IMG/VR virus record: IMGVR_UViG_3300044859_000518
Coordinates: 1 to 29,460 of that record
From: a virus
Direction: 5' to 3' (one strand)
Length of the DNA: 29,460 bases
Shown piece by piece: positions 2,644 through 17,402 of the stretch (the stretch's first letter is position 1; every line of letters begins with the position of its first letter). The notes beneath the pieces are model-generated. The model saw only the letters and a list, made by a program, of their open reading frames with translations. It searched no databases and was not told where the DNA came from. The translations under genes were made by a program, and so were the position numbers.

Positions 2644-3102
2644 ATGGCAAGAGGAAGACCTAAAGGCACTAAGTCGTTATTAGAACGATTATTAGACAGA
2701 GTTGTAATCAATGAAGTAACTGATTGTTGGGAATATCAAGGTGGTAAAAACAATATTGGCTATGGGATGATACGTGATGAAAAGAAAATGCGTACAACAC
2801 ATCGTGTCAGTTACGAAGAACACGTTGGTAAAATACCCCCACGAATGTGTGTGTGCCACACTTGCGATAACCCTATTTGTTGTAATCCCAATCATTTATG
2901 GTTAGGTACATTAAAACAAAATAGCCACGATATGTATAAAAAGGGTAGAGGAAAACCCTTTGGCAGTTATCTTGGCAGTGGTGACGGAATGCGTGGTAAG
3001 AAACAACCAACAACACTTTGCATACATTGTAATCGGCTAATGCCAAACAACAGTTATGCAAGATTTCACGGGGAAAAATGTAGAAGTAAACTAAAAGAAT
3101 AA
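2644..3102 (+). CDS. HNH endonuclease (homing type) with C-terminal zinc finger
   Basis: A 152-residue protein. Residues 3-8 (RGRPKG) look like an AT-hook. The core from HRVSYEEHVGKIPP through VCHTCDNPICCNPNHLWLGT (about 53-90) is the HNH signature: His72 in the catalytic position, Cys74 and Cys79 region, Asn83-His84, and the following QNSHD. A second zinc site at the C-terminus has Cys126, Cys129, His142 and Cys146 (CIHC...HGEKC), as in several phage HNH proteins. It is a free-standing gene between the fibre module and the early region, bordered by unique regulatory DNA, typical of a homing endonuclease, although HNH proteins can also assist DNA packaging. An RBS-like AGAAATACA lies upstream with a weak GGAG at 2632-2635. 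Confidence 0.88.
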   Translation: MARGRPKGTKSLLERLLDRVVINEVTDCWEYQGGKNNIGYGMIRDEKKMRTTHRVSYEEHVGKIPPRMCVCHTCDNPICCNPNHLWLGTLKQNSHDMYKKGRGKPFGSYLGSGDGMRGKKQPTTLCIHCNRLMPNNSYARFHGEKCRSKLKE

Positions 3103-3105
3103 ATA
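3098..3105 (+). promoter_or_regulatory. TAAATA motif (AATAAATA) at start of candidate ncRNA
   Basis: The box overlaps the HNH stop codon and lies 4 nt before the long 12-bp stem that opens the structured region. If it works like a T4 late -10 box, transcription would begin around 3111, at the base of that stem. Function is inferred. Confidence 0.35.
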
Positions 3106-3108
3106 GTT

Positions 3109-3298
3109 GTGTAGTGAGACAACCTGATTTGCATAATTCAGTTATCCTAATTTACTACGCCATAGTAAATGTCCTTTAAAACGTCTCACTACACTTTCGT
3201 TTAGTTATAATAAGAAGTTCGTTATCCTGATAAAGTTATCGCAACGATAACTTTGAAGCCCCCAAGTTTTTAGTCATTCTCTGGGGGCTTCTTTTTAT
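3109..3298 (+). ncRNA. Candidate structured phage ncRNA (no known family)
   Basis: This gene-free stretch folds into nested perfect stems. An outer 12-bp helix pairs 3109-3120 (GTGTAGTGAGAC) with 3183-3194 (GTCTCACTACAC). Inside are a small hairpin at 3124-3141 (CTGA/TCAG) and an 8-bp hairpin at 3150-3170 (ATTTACTA, loop CGCCA, TAGTAAAT), making a three-way junction. Downstream follow a 10-bp hairpin with 3-nt loop at 3232-3254 and an intrinsic terminator. GTTATC occurs at 3141, 3221 and 3235 and its complement GATAAC at 3246, so alternative pairings are possible. No ORF of note, tRNA T-loop or known riboswitch core was seen. The RNA nature is inferred from structure, the upstream TAAATA box and the terminator. 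Confidence 0.5.
3255..3298 (+). terminator. Rho-independent terminator
   Basis: GAAGCCCCC (3255-3263) pairs with GGGGGCTTC (3283-3291), a 9-bp GC-rich stem with a 19-nt loop, followed at once by TTTTTAT. It ends transcription of the HNH gene and/or the candidate ncRNA and insulates the early promoter at 3474. Confidence 0.85.
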
Positions 3299-3380
3299 CT
3301 TCCGTGTATGTAGATACACATCCTGGCGAGATATCCAACTATTTTATTTTCAGTCAAAAAACACACAAAAAACACGGCTG

Positions 3381-3469
3381 TAGGCGCCTAGAACACAACA
3401 TTTTTTGTTGTTTTTACGCAACAACAGATTTTTTAGATAGAGAACTGTTGTATTTTTACAACCCCAACA
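3381..3469. promoter_or_regulatory. Palindrome plus CAACA/TGTTG half-site cluster
   Basis: A 10-bp perfect palindrome TAGGCGCCTA sits at 3381-3390. It is followed by six CAACA or TGTTG half-sites at 3396, 3406, 3419, 3422, 3446 and 3465, some arranged as inverted repeats (TTGTTG/CAACAA around an 8-nt loop; ACAACAG 3421-3427 with CTGTTGT 3445-3451). They end just before the -35 box of the early promoter. The arrangement suits operators for a regulator or, with the AT-rich T-tracts between them, an origin-like iteron region. Function is inferred. Confidence 0.45.
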
Positions 3470-3473
3470 ATAT

Positions 3474-3502
3474 TTGACAAAGAATAAAGGTTATGTTATA
3501 CT
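3474..3502 (+). promoter_or_regulatory. Consensus sigma-70 promoter for the early operon
   Basis: A perfect -35 box TTGACA (3474-3479) is separated by exactly 17 nt from a near-perfect -10 box TATACT (3497-3502). Start of transcription would be near 3509, giving a leader of about 20 nt with the ribosome binding site AAAGGAAA (3521-3528) before the ATG at 3531. It should be read by the host RNA polymerase on entry and drives 3531-4260 and probably the polymerase gene further on. Confidence 0.88.
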
Positions 3503-3530
3503 TGATGTAACAAACAACTAAAGGAAAGTT

Positions 3531-4019
3531 ATGGCGTCATTAGCAGAAATCAGGGCTCGTATGGGTATTATACAAGAAGAAAAACAAAAGGAAGTTAAAT
3601 CAGATCCAATCACATATGAACAGTATAAAGTATGGGATCAACTAAAAAAACCAAATAAGGTGTCCGATGTAGATGTGAGAATATATCATCATTCGGATAA
3701 GTCATTACACAATACATTGGAATGTCCCAAATGTGAAAGTGAATATATGCATCATATCGGTGTTGAACTATTTAACTGTGAAGAGGATGAACCGGGAGAG
3801 CATATAGAACTGTATCTTAAGGAATCATATGGATGGGATATGCTTAATGTAAAATGCCCAGAACATACGGTAAATAGTGATATGAAAAACAATCCAAGTA
3901 AAAGACGTAATGGATTATCCATTTCATTTGTATGTGAAGAATGTCATCATATATTACATTTGGGTATTGCTCAACATAAAGGTTTAACACAACTTTCTTG
4001 GAGCTTTATGAATGGCTAA
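3531..4019 (+). CDS. Conserved phage zinc-ribbon-like protein, unknown function
   Basis: A 162-residue protein. The N-terminus MASLAEIRARMG is a short helix of a kind also seen at the start of phage ssDNA-binding proteins. Two Cys pairs, C65-x2-C68 with HH at 74-75, and C135-x2-C138 with HH at 139-140, look like the knuckles of one zinc ribbon. The C-terminal signature NPSKRRNGLSISFVCEEC followed by IAQHKGLTQLSW resembles a widespread phage family of unknown function with the same NPS-R-G, CExC and QHKG features, as I recall it. It is the first gene after the sigma-70 promoter and so probably an early protein, perhaps acting on host transcription or replication; that role is inferred. Confidence 0.7.
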   Translation: MASLAEIRARMGIIQEEKQKEVKSDPITYEQYKVWDQLKKPNKVSDVDVRIYHHSDKSLHNTLECPKCESEYMHHIGVELFNCEEDEPGEHIELYLKESYGWDMLNVKCPEHTVNSDMKNNPSKRRNGLSISFVCEECHHILHLGIAQHKGLTQLSWSFMNG

Positions 4020-4260
4020 AAACTTAGAACAACATATTAGAGATAGTTTTATTAAACTAAATGACCGTGAAAAACTATATGAAAGTCACAATTTACATAG
4101 TGAAATATTGACTAATCATTTGGAAAAAGAACGAGATAGTTTGCGTAGATTACAGTTTCTATTATATCTAACTATGAAAGAACAATATCCCAATGAAACT
4201 ATTGACGGAACTACTATGTTTGAGAAATATATATTTGAGATAAAGGTCACATTAAAATGA
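4012..4260 (+). CDS. Small helical early protein, unknown
   Basis: An 82-residue protein whose ATG lies 8 nt inside the preceding gene, suggesting translational coupling. The sequence is strongly charged and helical (LHSEILTNHLEKERDSLRRLQFLLYLTMKEQ), without Cys and without a clear membrane segment; residues 40-60 could form an amphipathic helix. No family was recognised. Its place in the early operon suggests a host-takeover or regulatory peptide, which is inference only. Confidence 0.65.
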   Translation: MAKNLEQHIRDSFIKLNDREKLYESHNLHSEILTNHLEKERDSLRRLQFLLYLTMKEQYPNETIDGTTMFEKYIFEIKVTLK

Positions 4261-4300
4261 CCAAAATACATAGCTTATTTTAATGTTTAGTACTATAATG

Positions 4301-4316
4301 ACTAAATACTATTATG
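4301..4316 (+). promoter_or_regulatory. ACTAAATAC...TATTA motif upstream of the leader
   Basis: ACTAAATACTATTATG is the first of three intergenic sites with ACTAAATAC followed within 0-2 nt by TATTA (others at 6711 and 12913). A TATAAT also lies 2 nt upstream (4294-4299) but lacks a good -35. It would start a transcript across the structured leader and the polymerase gene. Promoter role is inferred from recurrence. Confidence 0.4.
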
Positions 4317-4494: not shown

Positions 4495-4674
4495 ATGGCT
4501 TTAATAAAGGCTTTTAGTAATACAAAAAGTGATACGACTAATATAGGTCAAAAAAGTGATACGACTAATAGTAATGTGGCACTTAAATATCATTATAAGG
4601 GGTATATCCCCTATGGGGAAACACCCCTATCTTGCAACTTGCTTGACTTAGTAGGTGTGGAGTTAGTGTTATGA
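4495..4674 (+). CDS. 59-residue protein coupled to the polymerase gene
   Basis: The start at 4495 is chosen because AAAGGA lies 8 nt upstream; the reading frame is open back to 4375 but that part is occupied by the structured leader. The protein begins MALIKAFSNTKSDTT and has two copies of KSDTTN encoded by a 20-nt direct repeat. It ends with a hydrophobic stretch (NLLDLVGVELVL). Its TGA overlaps the polymerase ATG (ATGA), so the two are translationally coupled. No homologue was recognised. It may be a leader peptide as much as a working protein. Confidence 0.5.
   Translation: MALIKAFSNTKSDTTNIGQKSDTTNSNVALKYHYKGYIPYGETPLSCNLLDLVGVELVL
4524..4570 (+). repeat. 20-nt direct repeat, two perfect copies
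   Basis: AAAAAGTGATACGACTAATA occurs at 4524-4543 and 4551-4570, a 27-nt period, inside the 59-residue gene. It encodes the KSDTTN repeat. The perfect identity suggests a recent slip or a selected site. Confidence 0.85.
4599..4627 (+). promoter_or_regulatory. Alternating G4/C4 blocks, switch-like RNA element
   Basis: Four blocks follow each other: GGGG 4599-4602, CCCC 4608-4611, GGGG 4615-4618, CCCC 4624-4627. Blocks 1-2 and 3-4 can form two hairpins with 5-nt loops, or 2-3 can pair as TCCCC/GGGGA around a 3-nt loop with 1-4 outside. The pairings exclude each other, as in attenuators. The element lies in the last third of the 59-residue gene, 44 nt before the polymerase start. Confidence 0.45.
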
Positions 4675-6413
4675 ACTACTCACTTATCCAACTCAATGAA
4701 CAAAAACTATATGATTATTTCAATGCCCAAACTGATTGGCAAAAGAACAACATCAATAGTAAAATAGCAACATACAAAAAACTACTGGTTAAATACATTA
4801 TAGAACGAAAGCATTATACTTCCGGTCTTGACTTATATCAGTTCCCACACGACAAGTTTAGTAAAGAAGTTGGATTACAAGCAGTCTATGGAACTAAACC
4901 ACTTAAACGAGAACATTTCGTTAAAGTCATTCAACACACACAACCTCAATATACATTGATTCCAGGTAGCAATTTTACACAAAAAGTATCACTTATGACA
5001 ACAAACTTTAACATTGACTTATTAGTTCAAACAAACAGCATAGATGATTTGTTAGTTGCAAAGTATGGAGACGTAGATATCACTGACCCAAATGTCGTTG
5101 ATATCGTTCCCATTGACATAAAAAGCCTCAAGGCATATATGAAAGCAAATGAAGCATTACCCAATCGCAATACAACTATCATCAAATACTATAAAGATGC
5201 ACAGGAGATATTGATGACAGCAATAGCAACAAATGGCGTATTGCCCCAAGTTATCACTGAAAGCGAATATGGGCGTAGATACTACAGAGGTCTCAATCTA
5301 CAGAACGTCAGCAAAGTAGTGCGTGAAGCCGCACTGGGTCCTCATTACGAATACGACTTGAATGCCGCTGTATATGCTATTAAAACAAATATCTGTAGTT
5401 TAATCACTAACCAAAAGTTTACTTACACTAGCGAATACATTGAAGGTGGCGGCAAGTTTAAAGATAGTATTAGAAAACGATTAGCATTAGCCTGCTTCAA
5501 AGAGAACGAAAACGACAAATACTTCAAAAAGAATATAGAACGCATTAAACAAGCAATCACAGCGATTGGCTTCGGAGCAACACGTTCAAGTAAAGGATAT
5601 TATCAGGGCAAAGATTGGAAGCCTGTAAGTTTAGAACTAATCTTTGGATATTACACTCAAAACAATGGACGCAATATGCATAACCCATTGACAAAAGAAG
5701 TGTTAGACGATAAAGGTAATATGATACACAAGAAATGTATTGATATCTTTTTAGAAGATAGTTGGATGAAACACTTCTATGAAGAACAAGCAGTTATGAC
5801 CAAAACGATTTGCGACTATATGAAAGAATCTAAACAAGTAACAAAAGAAACACATTCATTCTTAGTAGATGGACGTAATGCAATCAACAACAATAAACTT
5901 ATGGCTCTTGTGTTCCAAACTAGTGAAAGAGCAATAATGGACTTTGCTGTAAAAGAAATAGAGAGCCAGGGTGTTAAAATATTATTACGGGTCCACGATG
6001 CATTATTCACAGATAAACGTATTGATATGCAGGAACTACATCATAAACTACACGAAGTGTTTGTTAGCGATAGTTTAAGTTGGTTGGGCAAAAGAATACT
6101 AAGTTTTGAAGAAACAGAAGCACAAGGCTTTTACTTTGACGATGAACTGTATGCACATAAAGAACGCATTAGGCAGGAGGAAATTAGTGCAGGTGGAAGG
6201 TCCTTAGGTGTAAAGCCACTCAACTACAAGCCTGTCTCATATGACGATAGTAAGCCATATGACGGATCCTGCGATTATGGACAAACAGAATATGACCCAG
6301 AACACGATCCATATATAGTAGATATGAACGAACAAGAACTTAGTGAACATTATCGCATAATAGGACACAAACCTGCAGATAGAATACCCGAACATATTAG
6401 GCGATTATTGTGA
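4671..6413 (+). CDS. Divergent polymerase with family A / T7 RNA polymerase-like palm motifs
   Basis: A 580-residue protein whose C-terminal half shows the spaced motifs of the polymerase A superfamily. Motif A: D229 in EYDLNAAVYAIK. Motif B: R291-x-K293 then F301-G302 in RIKQAITAIGFGATR, with the same K-x7-aromatic-G spacing as the O-helix of Klenow (K758/Y766) and T7 RNA polymerase (K631/Y639). Before motif C: Q416 and E419 in VFQTSERAIMDFA. Motif C: H442-D443 in LLRVHDALF. The acid that follows motif A in DNA polymerases (DYSQIE) is absent. The first 200 residues show no exonuclease motif. The acidic tail (510-560) is rich in Asp and Tyr. It could be a DNA polymerase/replicase or a single-subunit RNA polymerase; no other replication gene is in the window. 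Start overlaps the previous stop. Confidence 0.6.
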   Translation: MNYSLIQLNEQKLYDYFNAQTDWQKNNINSKIATYKKLLVKYIIERKHYTSGLDLYQFPHDKFSKEVGLQAVYGTKPLKREHFVKVIQHTQPQYTLIPGSNFTQKVSLMTTNFNIDLLVQTNSIDDLLVAKYGDVDITDPNVVDIVPIDIKSLKAYMKANEALPNRNTTIIKYYKDAQEILMTAIATNGVLPQVITESEYGRRYYRGLNLQNVSKVVREAALGPHYEYDLNAAVYAIKTNICSLITNQKFTYTSEYIEGGGKFKDSIRKRLALACFKENENDKYFKKNIERIKQAITAIGFGATRSSKGYYQGKDWKPVSLELIFGYYTQNNGRNMHNPLTKEVLDDKGNMIHKKCIDIFLEDSWMKHFYEEQAVMTKTICDYMKESKQVTKETHSFLVDGRNAINNNKLMALVFQTSERAIMDFAVKEIESQGVKILLRVHDALFTDKRIDMQELHHKLHEVFVSDSLSWLGKRILSFEETEAQGFYFDDELYAHKERIRQEEISAGGRSLGVKPLNYKPVSYDDSKPYDGSCDYGQTEYDPEHDPYIVDMNEQELSEHYRIIGHKPADRIPEHIRRLL

Positions 6414-6745: not shown

Positions 6746-8911
6746 ATGGCTCAAATCAAAAACCCACTAGACGAAGTACGCATCCCATTTGCGAAGATGA
6801 CCTTCACACCTGATGTTCCTTCGACGGCACTACAGCCTAACGAATACAACTATGGAGAGAATGTAGAGACTGACGTTCGTGGTATACGCAGTATGGCAGG
6901 TGATGAAGAAATACTAGACACAGTGCCCGGCATCCCCACATTCGTTACTGGTGGCTTTCGTCAAAACAATGAGTTCTGGTTCATCGTAGCAACTTACGAG
7001 ATAGATCCACTTGACCCCACAAACCCTGATGCTAACCTAGGCAGATGGTATGCAAGCAATGGCACAACTACTTGGTATGACATTACGCCAGGTGGTGTGC
7101 CAATATTAGGCTATCGTCAAAACACAAACATTACGGAGAGTTGGAACGGTACCGTACCATTGTTTAATGATACACGCACTGCACCAATGTTCTGGCCAGA
7201 GCCTACAGCACTTGACCCGTCACCCATAATGACACAGTACAGTAATCTAATACTGCCAGCAAACATTTATAATATTACATATGTTAATCCAACAACACAA
7301 AAAATTGTAGTAGGCTTTACTAGTACAGGATCAGATATCAGCGGCACAACATTAACTATTGGAACATTAACCAATGGTGAAGTATTTGCAGGAATGTCTA
7401 TTACTGGTACAGGAGTATCAGCTGCCACAAAGATTGTAAGTGGCAGTGGATCAATTTGGACAGTAAATATCAGTCAAACAGTTGCCGCTACTGCAATTGG
7501 TAGCCAACCATATGCATCAGCACCCTATACTGTAGGACAACAAATCGTTATCAGTGATGTTAATAACTTCTTCAATGGTGTATTCACCGTGGTTAGTTCA
7601 ACTACAACTACGATTGATTACCTTGCAGTGCCCGGTGCAGCCTACCCTGGCGGACCATTAGGTGTAGTCAATCCTGCATATACTTGGAACTATAATCCTA
7701 ACTGGAGTAAGGTAATTGCAAACTTTATGCGAATGTACAGTACGCCTAACGTGGGATCAATATTAGTAGCAGGTAACTTAACCGTGACGTTGATTGATGG
7801 AGTTACAGTTGAGCAGTATCCAACAACTGTGCAATGGAGTCAAGCGTTTGGTCTTAATCAAGCACCACGCACTTGGGTACCCACAATCACTAACGTAGCC
7901 AATCAGTTAGAAGTTCCAATACGTGGAGAAACGTTAGACGCATTCCCTTGCAACGGTCAGTTCTTCCTTTGTTCATATTGGGACACAGTTGTATTCAGTC
8001 CCATCAACTACAGTACGACAAGTGCGCCAATCTTAGGTGTTCGTCAGTTCAATCAAGGTCGCGGATTATTAAGTAGTAACTGTTGGGCAAACACAGACAA
8101 ACTTGTGTATGGTATAGATGCTAGAGATGTATGGGTCTTTGATGGACAAGACTTTCAGGGTCTAGGCAATCAACGTGTAAAAAATTGGTTGTTTGATAAA
8201 CTTGATCCAGAATATTATGACCGTGTGTTTATGGAAGTAAACACACAACGCAGTCAAGTTGAGATATACTATCCAGATGATGACAGTGTTGATGGCGTAC
8301 CAAACAAAATGCTTTCATATAGATACGACTTAGACTGTTGGAACAGTCCTAGAGATGTTAGTGACGCTACATTCAGTTGCGAGAGTCCTATTTTTGAGTT
8401 CAACACTCCAAACTATGATCCATTATTATCAAGCAGAACTGTTGTTTACGCTAGAGGTGTAGAAGATGGTAAGTTAGTACAAAAGGATCAAGGTTATGAG
8501 TTTATCAATGGGGCACCTATTGCAAGCGAGTTCCGTCGTGACAACATTAAACTACTGAAAGATTACAGTGGCAAACTAATGGTTCATCGCATACTACCAG
8601 AAGTAGTTAACTTGGGTGCGATTCAAGGTACAGACAATGAACTACCAATTGATCCTGCAACAAGTACAAACAAAGGTAACATCACAGTTACAGTTGAAGG
8701 TGCTAACAGTGTAGGCAGTGCCCCAACAGCAAAGACTCCAGTAACGATTGCTGTAGATGCTGATGGTATAGCAGGAGCCAATCCTTGGGCACAAATTAAT
8801 CAAAACGCTTTCCGTGTTAATAGTCTTAAGTTAAGCAACAGTAGTAATAACAGTGTATGGATGTGCAGTGCAACAACCTGGCAAGTAACACAAGTCGAGG
8901 ACGACAGATGA
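6746..8911 (+). CDS. Tail hub/nozzle-like protein (P22 gp10-like) with an inserted domain
   Basis: A 721-residue protein. The stretch from about 385 to 510 contains DAFPCNGQFFLCSYWDTVVFSP, GVRQFNQGRGLLSS, DVWVFDGQDFQGL and VFMEVNTQRSQVEIYYP, the repeated Trp/Phe-Asp-Gly blade pattern seen in beta-propeller nozzle and stabilisation proteins of podophage tails (P22 gp10 type), located below the portal. Residues about 186-310 break this pattern with Gly/Thr/Ser-rich sequence (DISGTTLTIG, SITGTGVSAATKIVSGSGSIW), a virion module also common in other phage structural proteins. No strong ribosome binding site is visible. It opens the large virion operon and overlaps the next gene by 4 nt. Confidence 0.7.
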   Translation: MAQIKNPLDEVRIPFAKMTFTPDVPSTALQPNEYNYGENVETDVRGIRSMAGDEEILDTVPGIPTFVTGGFRQNNEFWFIVATYEIDPLDPTNPDANLGRWYASNGTTTWYDITPGGVPILGYRQNTNITESWNGTVPLFNDTRTAPMFWPEPTALDPSPIMTQYSNLILPANIYNITYVNPTTQKIVVGFTSTGSDISGTTLTIGTLTNGEVFAGMSITGTGVSAATKIVSGSGSIWTVNISQTVAATAIGSQPYASAPYTVGQQIVISDVNNFFNGVFTVVSSTTTTIDYLAVPGAAYPGGPLGVVNPAYTWNYNPNWSKVIANFMRMYSTPNVGSILVAGNLTVTLIDGVTVEQYPTTVQWSQAFGLNQAPRTWVPTITNVANQLEVPIRGETLDAFPCNGQFFLCSYWDTVVFSPINYSTTSAPILGVRQFNQGRGLLSSNCWANTDKLVYGIDARDVWVFDGQDFQGLGNQRVKNWLFDKLDPEYYDRVFMEVNTQRSQVEIYYPDDDSVDGVPNKMLSYRYDLDCWNSPRDVSDATFSCESPIFEFNTPNYDPLLSSRTVVYARGVEDGKLVQKDQGYEFINGAPIASEFRRDNIKLLKDYSGKLMVHRILPEVVNLGAIQGTDNELPIDPATSTNKGNITVTVEGANSVGSAPTAKTPVTIAVDADGIAGANPWAQINQNAFRVNSLKLSNSSNNSVWMCSATTWQVTQVEDDR
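7301..7676 (+). other. Inserted Gly/Thr-rich domain in the nozzle-like gene
   Basis: This segment encodes about residues 186-310, rich in Gly, Thr, Ser and Val, between nozzle-like sequences on both sides. The pattern ISGTTLTIG...GMSITGTGVSAATKI...WTVNISQTV is a mobile-looking virion module I recall from other phage structural proteins. Limits are approximate. Confidence 0.45.
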
Positions 8912-9801
8912 TATCAAAATATCCAATAGAAACAAGTGACAGTGAAGGCATTATAGATGCAATAAACTATTTGCTCAGTGGTCCTTCAGGCTTAGGACAA
9001 AACTTTGCAGGGTTCAGTAGTTACACTCCTGCATATGTTACTGGTAACTTTCGTACACCATTTACACAGGTTAATCCAGCGGCATTATATGTGCCAGCCA
9101 TAGCATTAAGTGACGCTCAACAACTTGATGACAGGACAATCAAGTATACATTTGCAAGTGCCCAGCCTACCCCACCATTTGCATTAGGTAACGGCTTGTC
9201 TATCTATGGTATTACGCCCAGTACCTACAATGGCAATCGACTTAACATAATTCAAATTGGTGTAGTAGAATGCACAACCACTTATGTAATTGTAAGAAAT
9301 AGAGATGTTATTACCACACCGTTAGGCACATACGTGTCAGGTGGTTTTGTTGAACTTTCAACTACTGGTAACTTTTACAACGGTACTGATTGTGATGTGC
9401 GTGTTACAGTGACTGGTGGTAGCGACAGAGTGTTTATAAGTGGACAACTAGAAAACTTGATAAGTTATGAAGTTTTTACACAACCAGCAGATTTTACATA
9501 CAGTGTTAATATTGAAAGATACATTGGTGTACCCAACAACGATCCTACCAATCCTGACTTTATCTTTATTGAAGACGGAACCATAGTAGAGAAAGTATAT
9601 AGTTTTACTGTGAACACTGTTGGCCCTGGCACCTTTCCATTACAAGAAACAATATTCTCAACACTTGTAGATGAACCAGATCCAGGTTTCTATCGTTACA
9701 TTCTTCAGGTAAAGTTTAGAAATCCTACAATAGGTGATATGCAAGTAACAAGTAGTGAAGTATCATTGCGTAGTATTGCCGCACAAGTAGTTAAACAGTA
9801 A
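8908..9801 (+). CDS. Virion-associated beta-rich protein, unknown
   Basis: The start at 8908 overlaps the preceding stop (ATGA) and is preceded by GAGG; the frame is open further upstream but without support. The 297-residue protein (MISKYPIETSDSEGIIDAINYLLSGPSGLGQNF...) is rich in beta-type residues with Tyr/Phe/Thr patches and few Lys. Its first 40 residues (EGIIDAINYLLSGPSGLGQNFAGF) are a helix and loop followed by strands. The position directly after the nozzle-like gene suggests a tail adaptor or fibre-attachment protein. No family was recognised with confidence. Confidence 0.6.
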   Translation: MISKYPIETSDSEGIIDAINYLLSGPSGLGQNFAGFSSYTPAYVTGNFRTPFTQVNPAALYVPAIALSDAQQLDDRTIKYTFASAQPTPPFALGNGLSIYGITPSTYNGNRLNIIQIGVVECTTTYVIVRNRDVITTPLGTYVSGGFVELSTTGNFYNGTDCDVRVTVTGGSDRVFISGQLENLISYEVFTQPADFTYSVNIERYIGVPNNDPTNPDFIFIEDGTIVEKVYSFTVNTVGPGTFPLQETIFSTLVDEPDPGFYRYILQVKFRNPTIGDMQVTSSEVSLRSIAAQVVKQ

Positions 9802-16970: not shown

Positions 16971-17402
16971 ATGACAACACAAGAAATACTAACACAAACC
17001 TTCAACAATAACTTTGTTGCTTACTATCGCTCACACGTAGCGCACATTAACATTTTGGGTCGCAACTTTCGCAGTGACCATAAGTTACTACAAGGTGTCT
17101 ATGAAAGACGACAAGCACAGATAGATATTCTTGGAGAACTACTACGCACATTAGATGATTATATGCCTTGTGAAATACAAGATGTATTAAATCAAAGTGA
17201 AATAGGCACAGGCATCTTTGAAGAAGATGCAGATGGATTTTTAGAAGGAGTTAAAGATGATTTGGAATTACTTAAAGGAACATACGAAGAACTTATGGCT
17301 ATTGCTGAAGACGAAGGTCACAAAGAAATAGCCAACTACGCTCAGGATCAAATATTAGATTTGGCAAAGAGCATATGGATGTTACGATCAACTTTGGAGT
17401 GA
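16971..17402 (+). CDS. Dps/ferritin-like protein
   Basis: A 143-residue all-helical protein. The segment YYRSHVAHINILGRNFRSDHKLLQGVYERR...IDILGELLRTLDDYMP follows helices A and B of Dps. Four ferroxidase ligands are in exact register with the Dps family: H25, H37 (12 apart), D52 (15 later) and E56 (4 later). The fifth usual ligand, four residues after the second His, is Gln41. Dps proteins oxidise and store iron and can bind DNA; phage relatives of this kind lie in virion gene clusters. The gene overlaps tail-to-tail by 15 nt with a minus-strand gene. Ferritin-like fold is well supported by the pattern; enzymatic activity and packaging in the virion are inferred. Confidence 0.72.
   Translation: MTTQEILTQTFNNNFVAYYRSHVAHINILGRNFRSDHKLLQGVYERRQAQIDILGELLRTLDDYMPCEIQDVLNQSEIGTGIFEEDADGFLEGVKDDLELLKGTYEELMAIAEDEGHKEIANYAQDQILDLAKSIWMLRSTLE

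Follow-up and report, generated by a model that had tools for sequence, protein, structure and literature searches.

Introduction

T4-type late promoters carry a TATAAATA box that is read by a gp55-like factor. In bacteria, the Helicobacter small RNA RepG recognises its target, a G-repeat in an mRNA leader, through the sequence of its terminator loop. Phages also control the initiation of translation, and the T4 RegA protein is a single factor that sits on the translation initiation region of about 30 mRNAs and thereby represses them (PMC3014915). Phage RNAs with related activities have been described, including P22 sar, which acts on one phage mRNA, ant, by interfering with the initiation of its translation, and lambda PreS, a small RNA that acts on host dnaN (PMC12197685).

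The window that we analysed, i.e., the entire stretch of 29,460 nucleotides, comprises positions 1-29,460 of IMG/VR record IMGVR_UViG_3300044859_000518, and the RNA locus described here lies at 3109-3298 on the + strand. As in the RegA system, many unrelated genes of these phages share a start-region motif, but the factor that we propose is an RNA rather than a protein. Like P22 sar and lambda OOP, it would be a phage-encoded RNA pairing with phage mRNAs; unlike sar and OOP, which have one neighbouring target each, it would act on many targets in trans through a short loop, and it has a conserved three-way junction. As in RepG, the proposed target-recognising part is the terminator loop, although here it is a start codon that would be recognised.

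Results

Location and fold of the RNA

An earlier note on this DNA described a gene-free stretch with stems of 12, 8, and 10 bp and a terminator, and every one of these elements was found at the place it gave, on the + strand. Positions 3109-3298 are devoid of any ORF of at least 40 aa, the nearest being the upstream HNH gene (2644-3102), which stops at 3102. On the other side, 3′ of the RNA, a sigma-70-like promoter of the early operon (3474-3502, + strand; TTGACA-17-TATACT, 11 of 12 matches to consensus) is followed by the early genes, so that both of the flanks named in the note are in place. The locus is far more stable than shuffled sequences, with a minimum free energy of −56 kcal/mol compared with a shuffled mean of −31.9 (z −6.6; 0 of 200 shuffles).

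Based on single-sequence folds, P1 (12 bp, 3109-3120 with 3183-3194) closes a three-way junction that spans 3109-3194. P2 (3124-3141) is a short CTGA/TCAG hairpin with TTGCAT in its loop, which forms 4 bp in five representative folds and scores weakly on the wide alignment (63% paired in the 19-sequence set), whilst P3 (3150-3170) is a hairpin of 8 bp (3150-3157 with 3163-3170) with the loop core GCC(A). With the short P2 present besides P1 and P3, three helices do meet in the part closed by P1, and the same three-way junction was obtained in five single-sequence folds made without an alignment. The strand that joins P2 to P3, TTATCCTA (3142-3149), is unpaired and largely conserved in the alignments, as is the motif TCCTTTA within the strand that follows P3 (3171-3182).

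Downstream of the junction, a linker, TTTCGTTTAGTT...AAGTTCGTTATCC (3195-3231), is partly conserved in the alignment and leads to the 10-bp hairpin AAAGTTATCG/CGATAACTTT (3232-3254; 3232-3241 with 3245-3254), which shows compensatory replacements in relatives and is absent from contig G015. The RNA ends in an intrinsic terminator (3255-3298), with a GC-rich hairpin (3255-3264 with 3282-3291) followed by a U run, and a loop (3265-3281) that holds TTTTAGTCAT. A consensus terminator scanner missed it because the loop is longer than 8 nt. The earlier note had further suggested that GTTATC/GATAAC copies permit alternative pairing. The copies do exist, but the alternative pairing is not conserved: in contig G013 the hairpin copies have become GTTAGA/TCTAAC, yet the unpaired GTTATCC copies are kept, and we therefore dropped the idea of a switch.

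Relatives of the locus and their gene order

An exact-stem search returned two close relatives, one of them present as two near-identical contigs. Contigs encoding the neighbouring virion protein supplied three more divergent copies, identified by similarity and a covariance model, and scanning with the spanin-like protein encoded next to the RNA brought the total to about 24 related viral contigs, all with the RNA in the same place, after the spanin-like gene. The carriers are uncultured short-tailed phages, and no named phage record is close at the DNA level. Among 50 viral contigs with loose pattern matches, the covariance model added no member; motif matches in bacterial genomes (L055, L056) were discarded as chance, because no other conserved element accompanies them.

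The order of the locus is constant, namely tail genes, the spanin-like gene, an optional HNH or ferritin-like gene, and the RNA. In G028, the RNA directly follows the spanin gene with nothing in between, and it is therefore independent of HNH. The HNH gene, to which the earlier note had given weight as a neighbour, is thus incidental, and the presence of the RNA without HNH in G028 and other phages also led us to reject an HNH-linked mobile element or a HEARO-like HNH-associated RNA. In many relatives (L132-L152), the position of the HNH gene, after the spanin gene and before the RNA, is taken by a ferritin-like gene (Dps-like, PF00210, phrog_3636); the window itself encodes another member of this PHROG family, at 16971-17402.

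Several other features of the region were recorded. When window 2644-4020 is compared with L002, a 162-aa early protein is 99% identical, whereas nearby structural proteins are 39-69% identical, and the module around the RNA has therefore probably been exchanged recently. Large early proteins of 580 aa (window 4671-6413) and 372 aa (L002 3948-5066) occupy the same slot; they are unrelated to each other by BLAST and have no Pfam match. In L031, about 500 bases (8520-9020) are without an obvious gene and gave no Rfam match.

Covariation and family status

The stems are retained in syntenic relatives with strong compensatory change, which upholds the proposal of a new structured phage RNA made in the earlier note. 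In 19 distinct sequences, aligned by fitting to a covariance model that favours structure, two-sided compensatory changes were found in 17 of 21 pairs (89 cells), a level reached in 0 of 500 shuffles, and 91% of cells are paired, compared with 67% in shuffled and 34-43% in slid controls. P1 is 99.5% paired in this set, with two-sided changes in eight of 11 counted pairs, and P3 has them in all seven pairs counted. With five sequences, two-sided changes were seen in 8 of 18 pairs, and 95.6% of cells pair. The covariance model scores the + strand at 124 bits and the − strand at 24 bits, and the G-U pairs lie on the + strand; the conserved object is therefore a + strand RNA.

No family in Rfam 15 matched at its curated gathering score, and a known RNA family was rejected on this ground. 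The best match below threshold, Phe_leader, reached 29 of the 55 bits and covers the linker and terminator region alone. We conclude that the locus is almost certainly a real, previously uncatalogued family of structured RNA.

A presumed late promoter box precedes the RNA

A TAAATA box, presumed to be a late-promoter element of the phage, lies at 3100-3105 (+ strand) and overlaps the stop codon of the HNH gene. The earlier note had seen this box where a T4-like promoter would start the RNA at the foot of the first stem. Its spacing is nearly fixed, since all the copies of the RNA that we located have it 3-6 nt ahead of P1. There are 21 TAAATA sites in the window, and 10 of them precede a gene start by 8-45 nt, compared with 0.9 expected, and the genes behind them include those for virion, tail, and portal proteins. 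Boxes occur 20-40 nt upstream of many window genes (e.g., at 2606, 6713, 9799, 17942, 26180, and 28506). On this evidence, TAAATA looks like a T4-late-like promoter box of the phage itself. The likeness to T4-type late promoters is that the box stands upstream of late-type genes; the difference is that no Sigma70_r2-type factor was found in these contigs. The phage with these boxes has an SU10-type portal.

Because the box precedes P1 so closely in every located copy, the RNA is probably transcribed separately and late in infection, and the unit is closed by the terminator before the next gene. A recurrent TATAATGACTAAATAC-like element (window 4287-4310; G002 9228; G013 13828; G039 2099; G043 6527) probably combines a sigma-70 −10 box with a TAAATA late box that overlaps it. 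We also considered ATGACTAAATAC sites (window 4298, and in relatives) as targets of the RNA and rejected them, since they look like promoter boxes instead.

The terminator loop is complementary to a start-codon context

The terminator loop, UUUUAGUCAU, is constant, and its core, TTTTAGTCAT, is invariant in 18 terminators with differing stems, a constancy that terminator function does not require. Its complement is AUGACUAA, a start-codon context, which is the commonest ATG+5 start word (8-mer) among the SD-preceded genes of loop-carrying contigs; these statistics were run after the loop motif had been seen, although a list of start words drawn up without reference to it also had this motif at the top. 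With genes called by a simple script on incomplete contigs, AUGACUAA starts occur in 14 of 124 gene families of phages with the loop, compared with 2 of 138 in relatives that lack the RNA (p 0.0008), although the GC content of this control set is 0.44 vs. 0.374; in the small, GC-matched set where the RNA lacks the loop, the count is 2 of 67. The control contexts ATGGC and ATGAGT have no such excess in loop-carrying phages. In the same phages, ATGACT is followed by a third codon AAN in 15 of 25 starts, compared with 36 of 209 for all remaining starts (p 1.1e-5), an effect absent from both loop-lacking and RNA-lacking relatives. Base composition by itself therefore does not explain it. Outside starts, with the RNA genes themselves removed, AUGACUAA is mildly above expectation. 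The RNA thus has an unpaired, conserved seed that is complementary to mRNA start regions above chance, as in trans-acting antisense small RNAs.

Within the window, the best of 31 starts is the proposed target ATGGCTAAAAACTT (4012-4025, + strand), the start region of the second early gene (4012-4260), with which the loop could pair over about 15 contiguous bp, one of them G-U (−18.8 kcal/mol). Six phages, which are related and hence not independent, were compared in this respect, and in four of them the better of the first two downstream genes is unbeaten by other genes for a match to the loop segment. Among the genes with complementary starts are those for an MT-A70 methyltransferase, a DUF5906 protein, and several small proteins encoded close to the RNA. 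The putative target genes vary from phage to phage, and not all are necessarily early, at least one (139 aa, G043/G047) being a possible exception; G013 has no strong loop match, and in several loop-carrying contigs, themselves incomplete, no AUGACUAA start was detected.

A weaker candidate is the SD and start of gene 3531 (TAAAGGAAAGTTATGGCGT; 3516-3537, + strand), which is complementary to the P3 loop ACGCCAT and to TCCTTTA and is the best-ranked start for this segment in both the window and G002. It is weak because the P3 loop, which fits the window and G002, varies elsewhere in the family, and as a general anti-start element this loop was rejected. So were the unpaired GTTATCC and TCCTTTA as anti-SD seeds, whose complements are not among the top enriched words of start regions.

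Discussion

We consider the chances about even that the locus encodes a late trans-acting RNA that blocks the translation starts of several phage genes. The boldest version, to which we give somewhat less than even odds, is that the terminator loop is an anti-start-codon seed by which the late RNA silences the phage's own regulon of AUGACUAA starts, as an RNA version of RegA; a search for the RegA family, run without a positive control, found no match. The phage late promoter at the foot of P1 would give rise to a discrete transcript of about 190 nt that stops at its own terminator, the loop of which would pair in trans with the AUGACUAA start-codon regions of several phage mRNAs. Starts of the form AUGGCUAA or AUGAUUAA could also be bound, through a G-U pair, and the resulting duplex would block ribosome binding. 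The three-way junction may be a conserved platform for stability, for protein binding, or for extra anti-SD contacts.

Pairing between loop and start does not account for the conserved strands of the junction, and the main rival to the antisense reading begins from them. The working part of the RNA may be the three-way junction, whose conserved strands (UUGCAU, GUUAUCCUA, GCC, and UCCUUUA) would bind a phage or host protein, the ribosome, or a ligand, with the loop as a second, non-antisense binding site. Apart from the loop, no unpaired positions are better conserved than these strands, and five phages without the terminator loop (G040, G044, G048, G053, and G054) still have the junction. What this explanation leaves aside is the excess of AUGACUAA starts, which is confined to the loop-carrying phages, and we regard it as distinctly the less probable.

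Three other explanations are less probable still. Host-acting phage small RNAs are known (PMC12197685), and a host-takeover RNA acting on host mRNAs, as PreS does on dnaN, would have precedent; we think it improbable, given that it is among the phages' own genes that complementary start contexts are in excess. A little less probable again is that the late operon transcript simply ends in this RNA, which as a stable 3′ UTR with a terminator would protect late mRNAs and insulate the early promoter. The RNA does always close the late block, and a terminator is found at the end of most copies, yet a terminator needs neither a conserved junction nor a constant loop, nor a promoter box nearly fixed in its distance to P1. 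That the perfect inverted repeats in the window act as DNA, as cruciforms or protein sites, is very improbable in view of the + strand G-U pairs, the difference in model score between the strands, and the U run of a terminator on the same strand.

The antisense reading, in which we infer duplex formation and repression from the match between loop and starts, is directly testable, since a conserved family, a readable seed, and a predicted set of targets are all to hand. The locus adds a structured RNA family that is absent from Rfam. Few lytic phages are known to control their own genes through an RNA that acts in trans.
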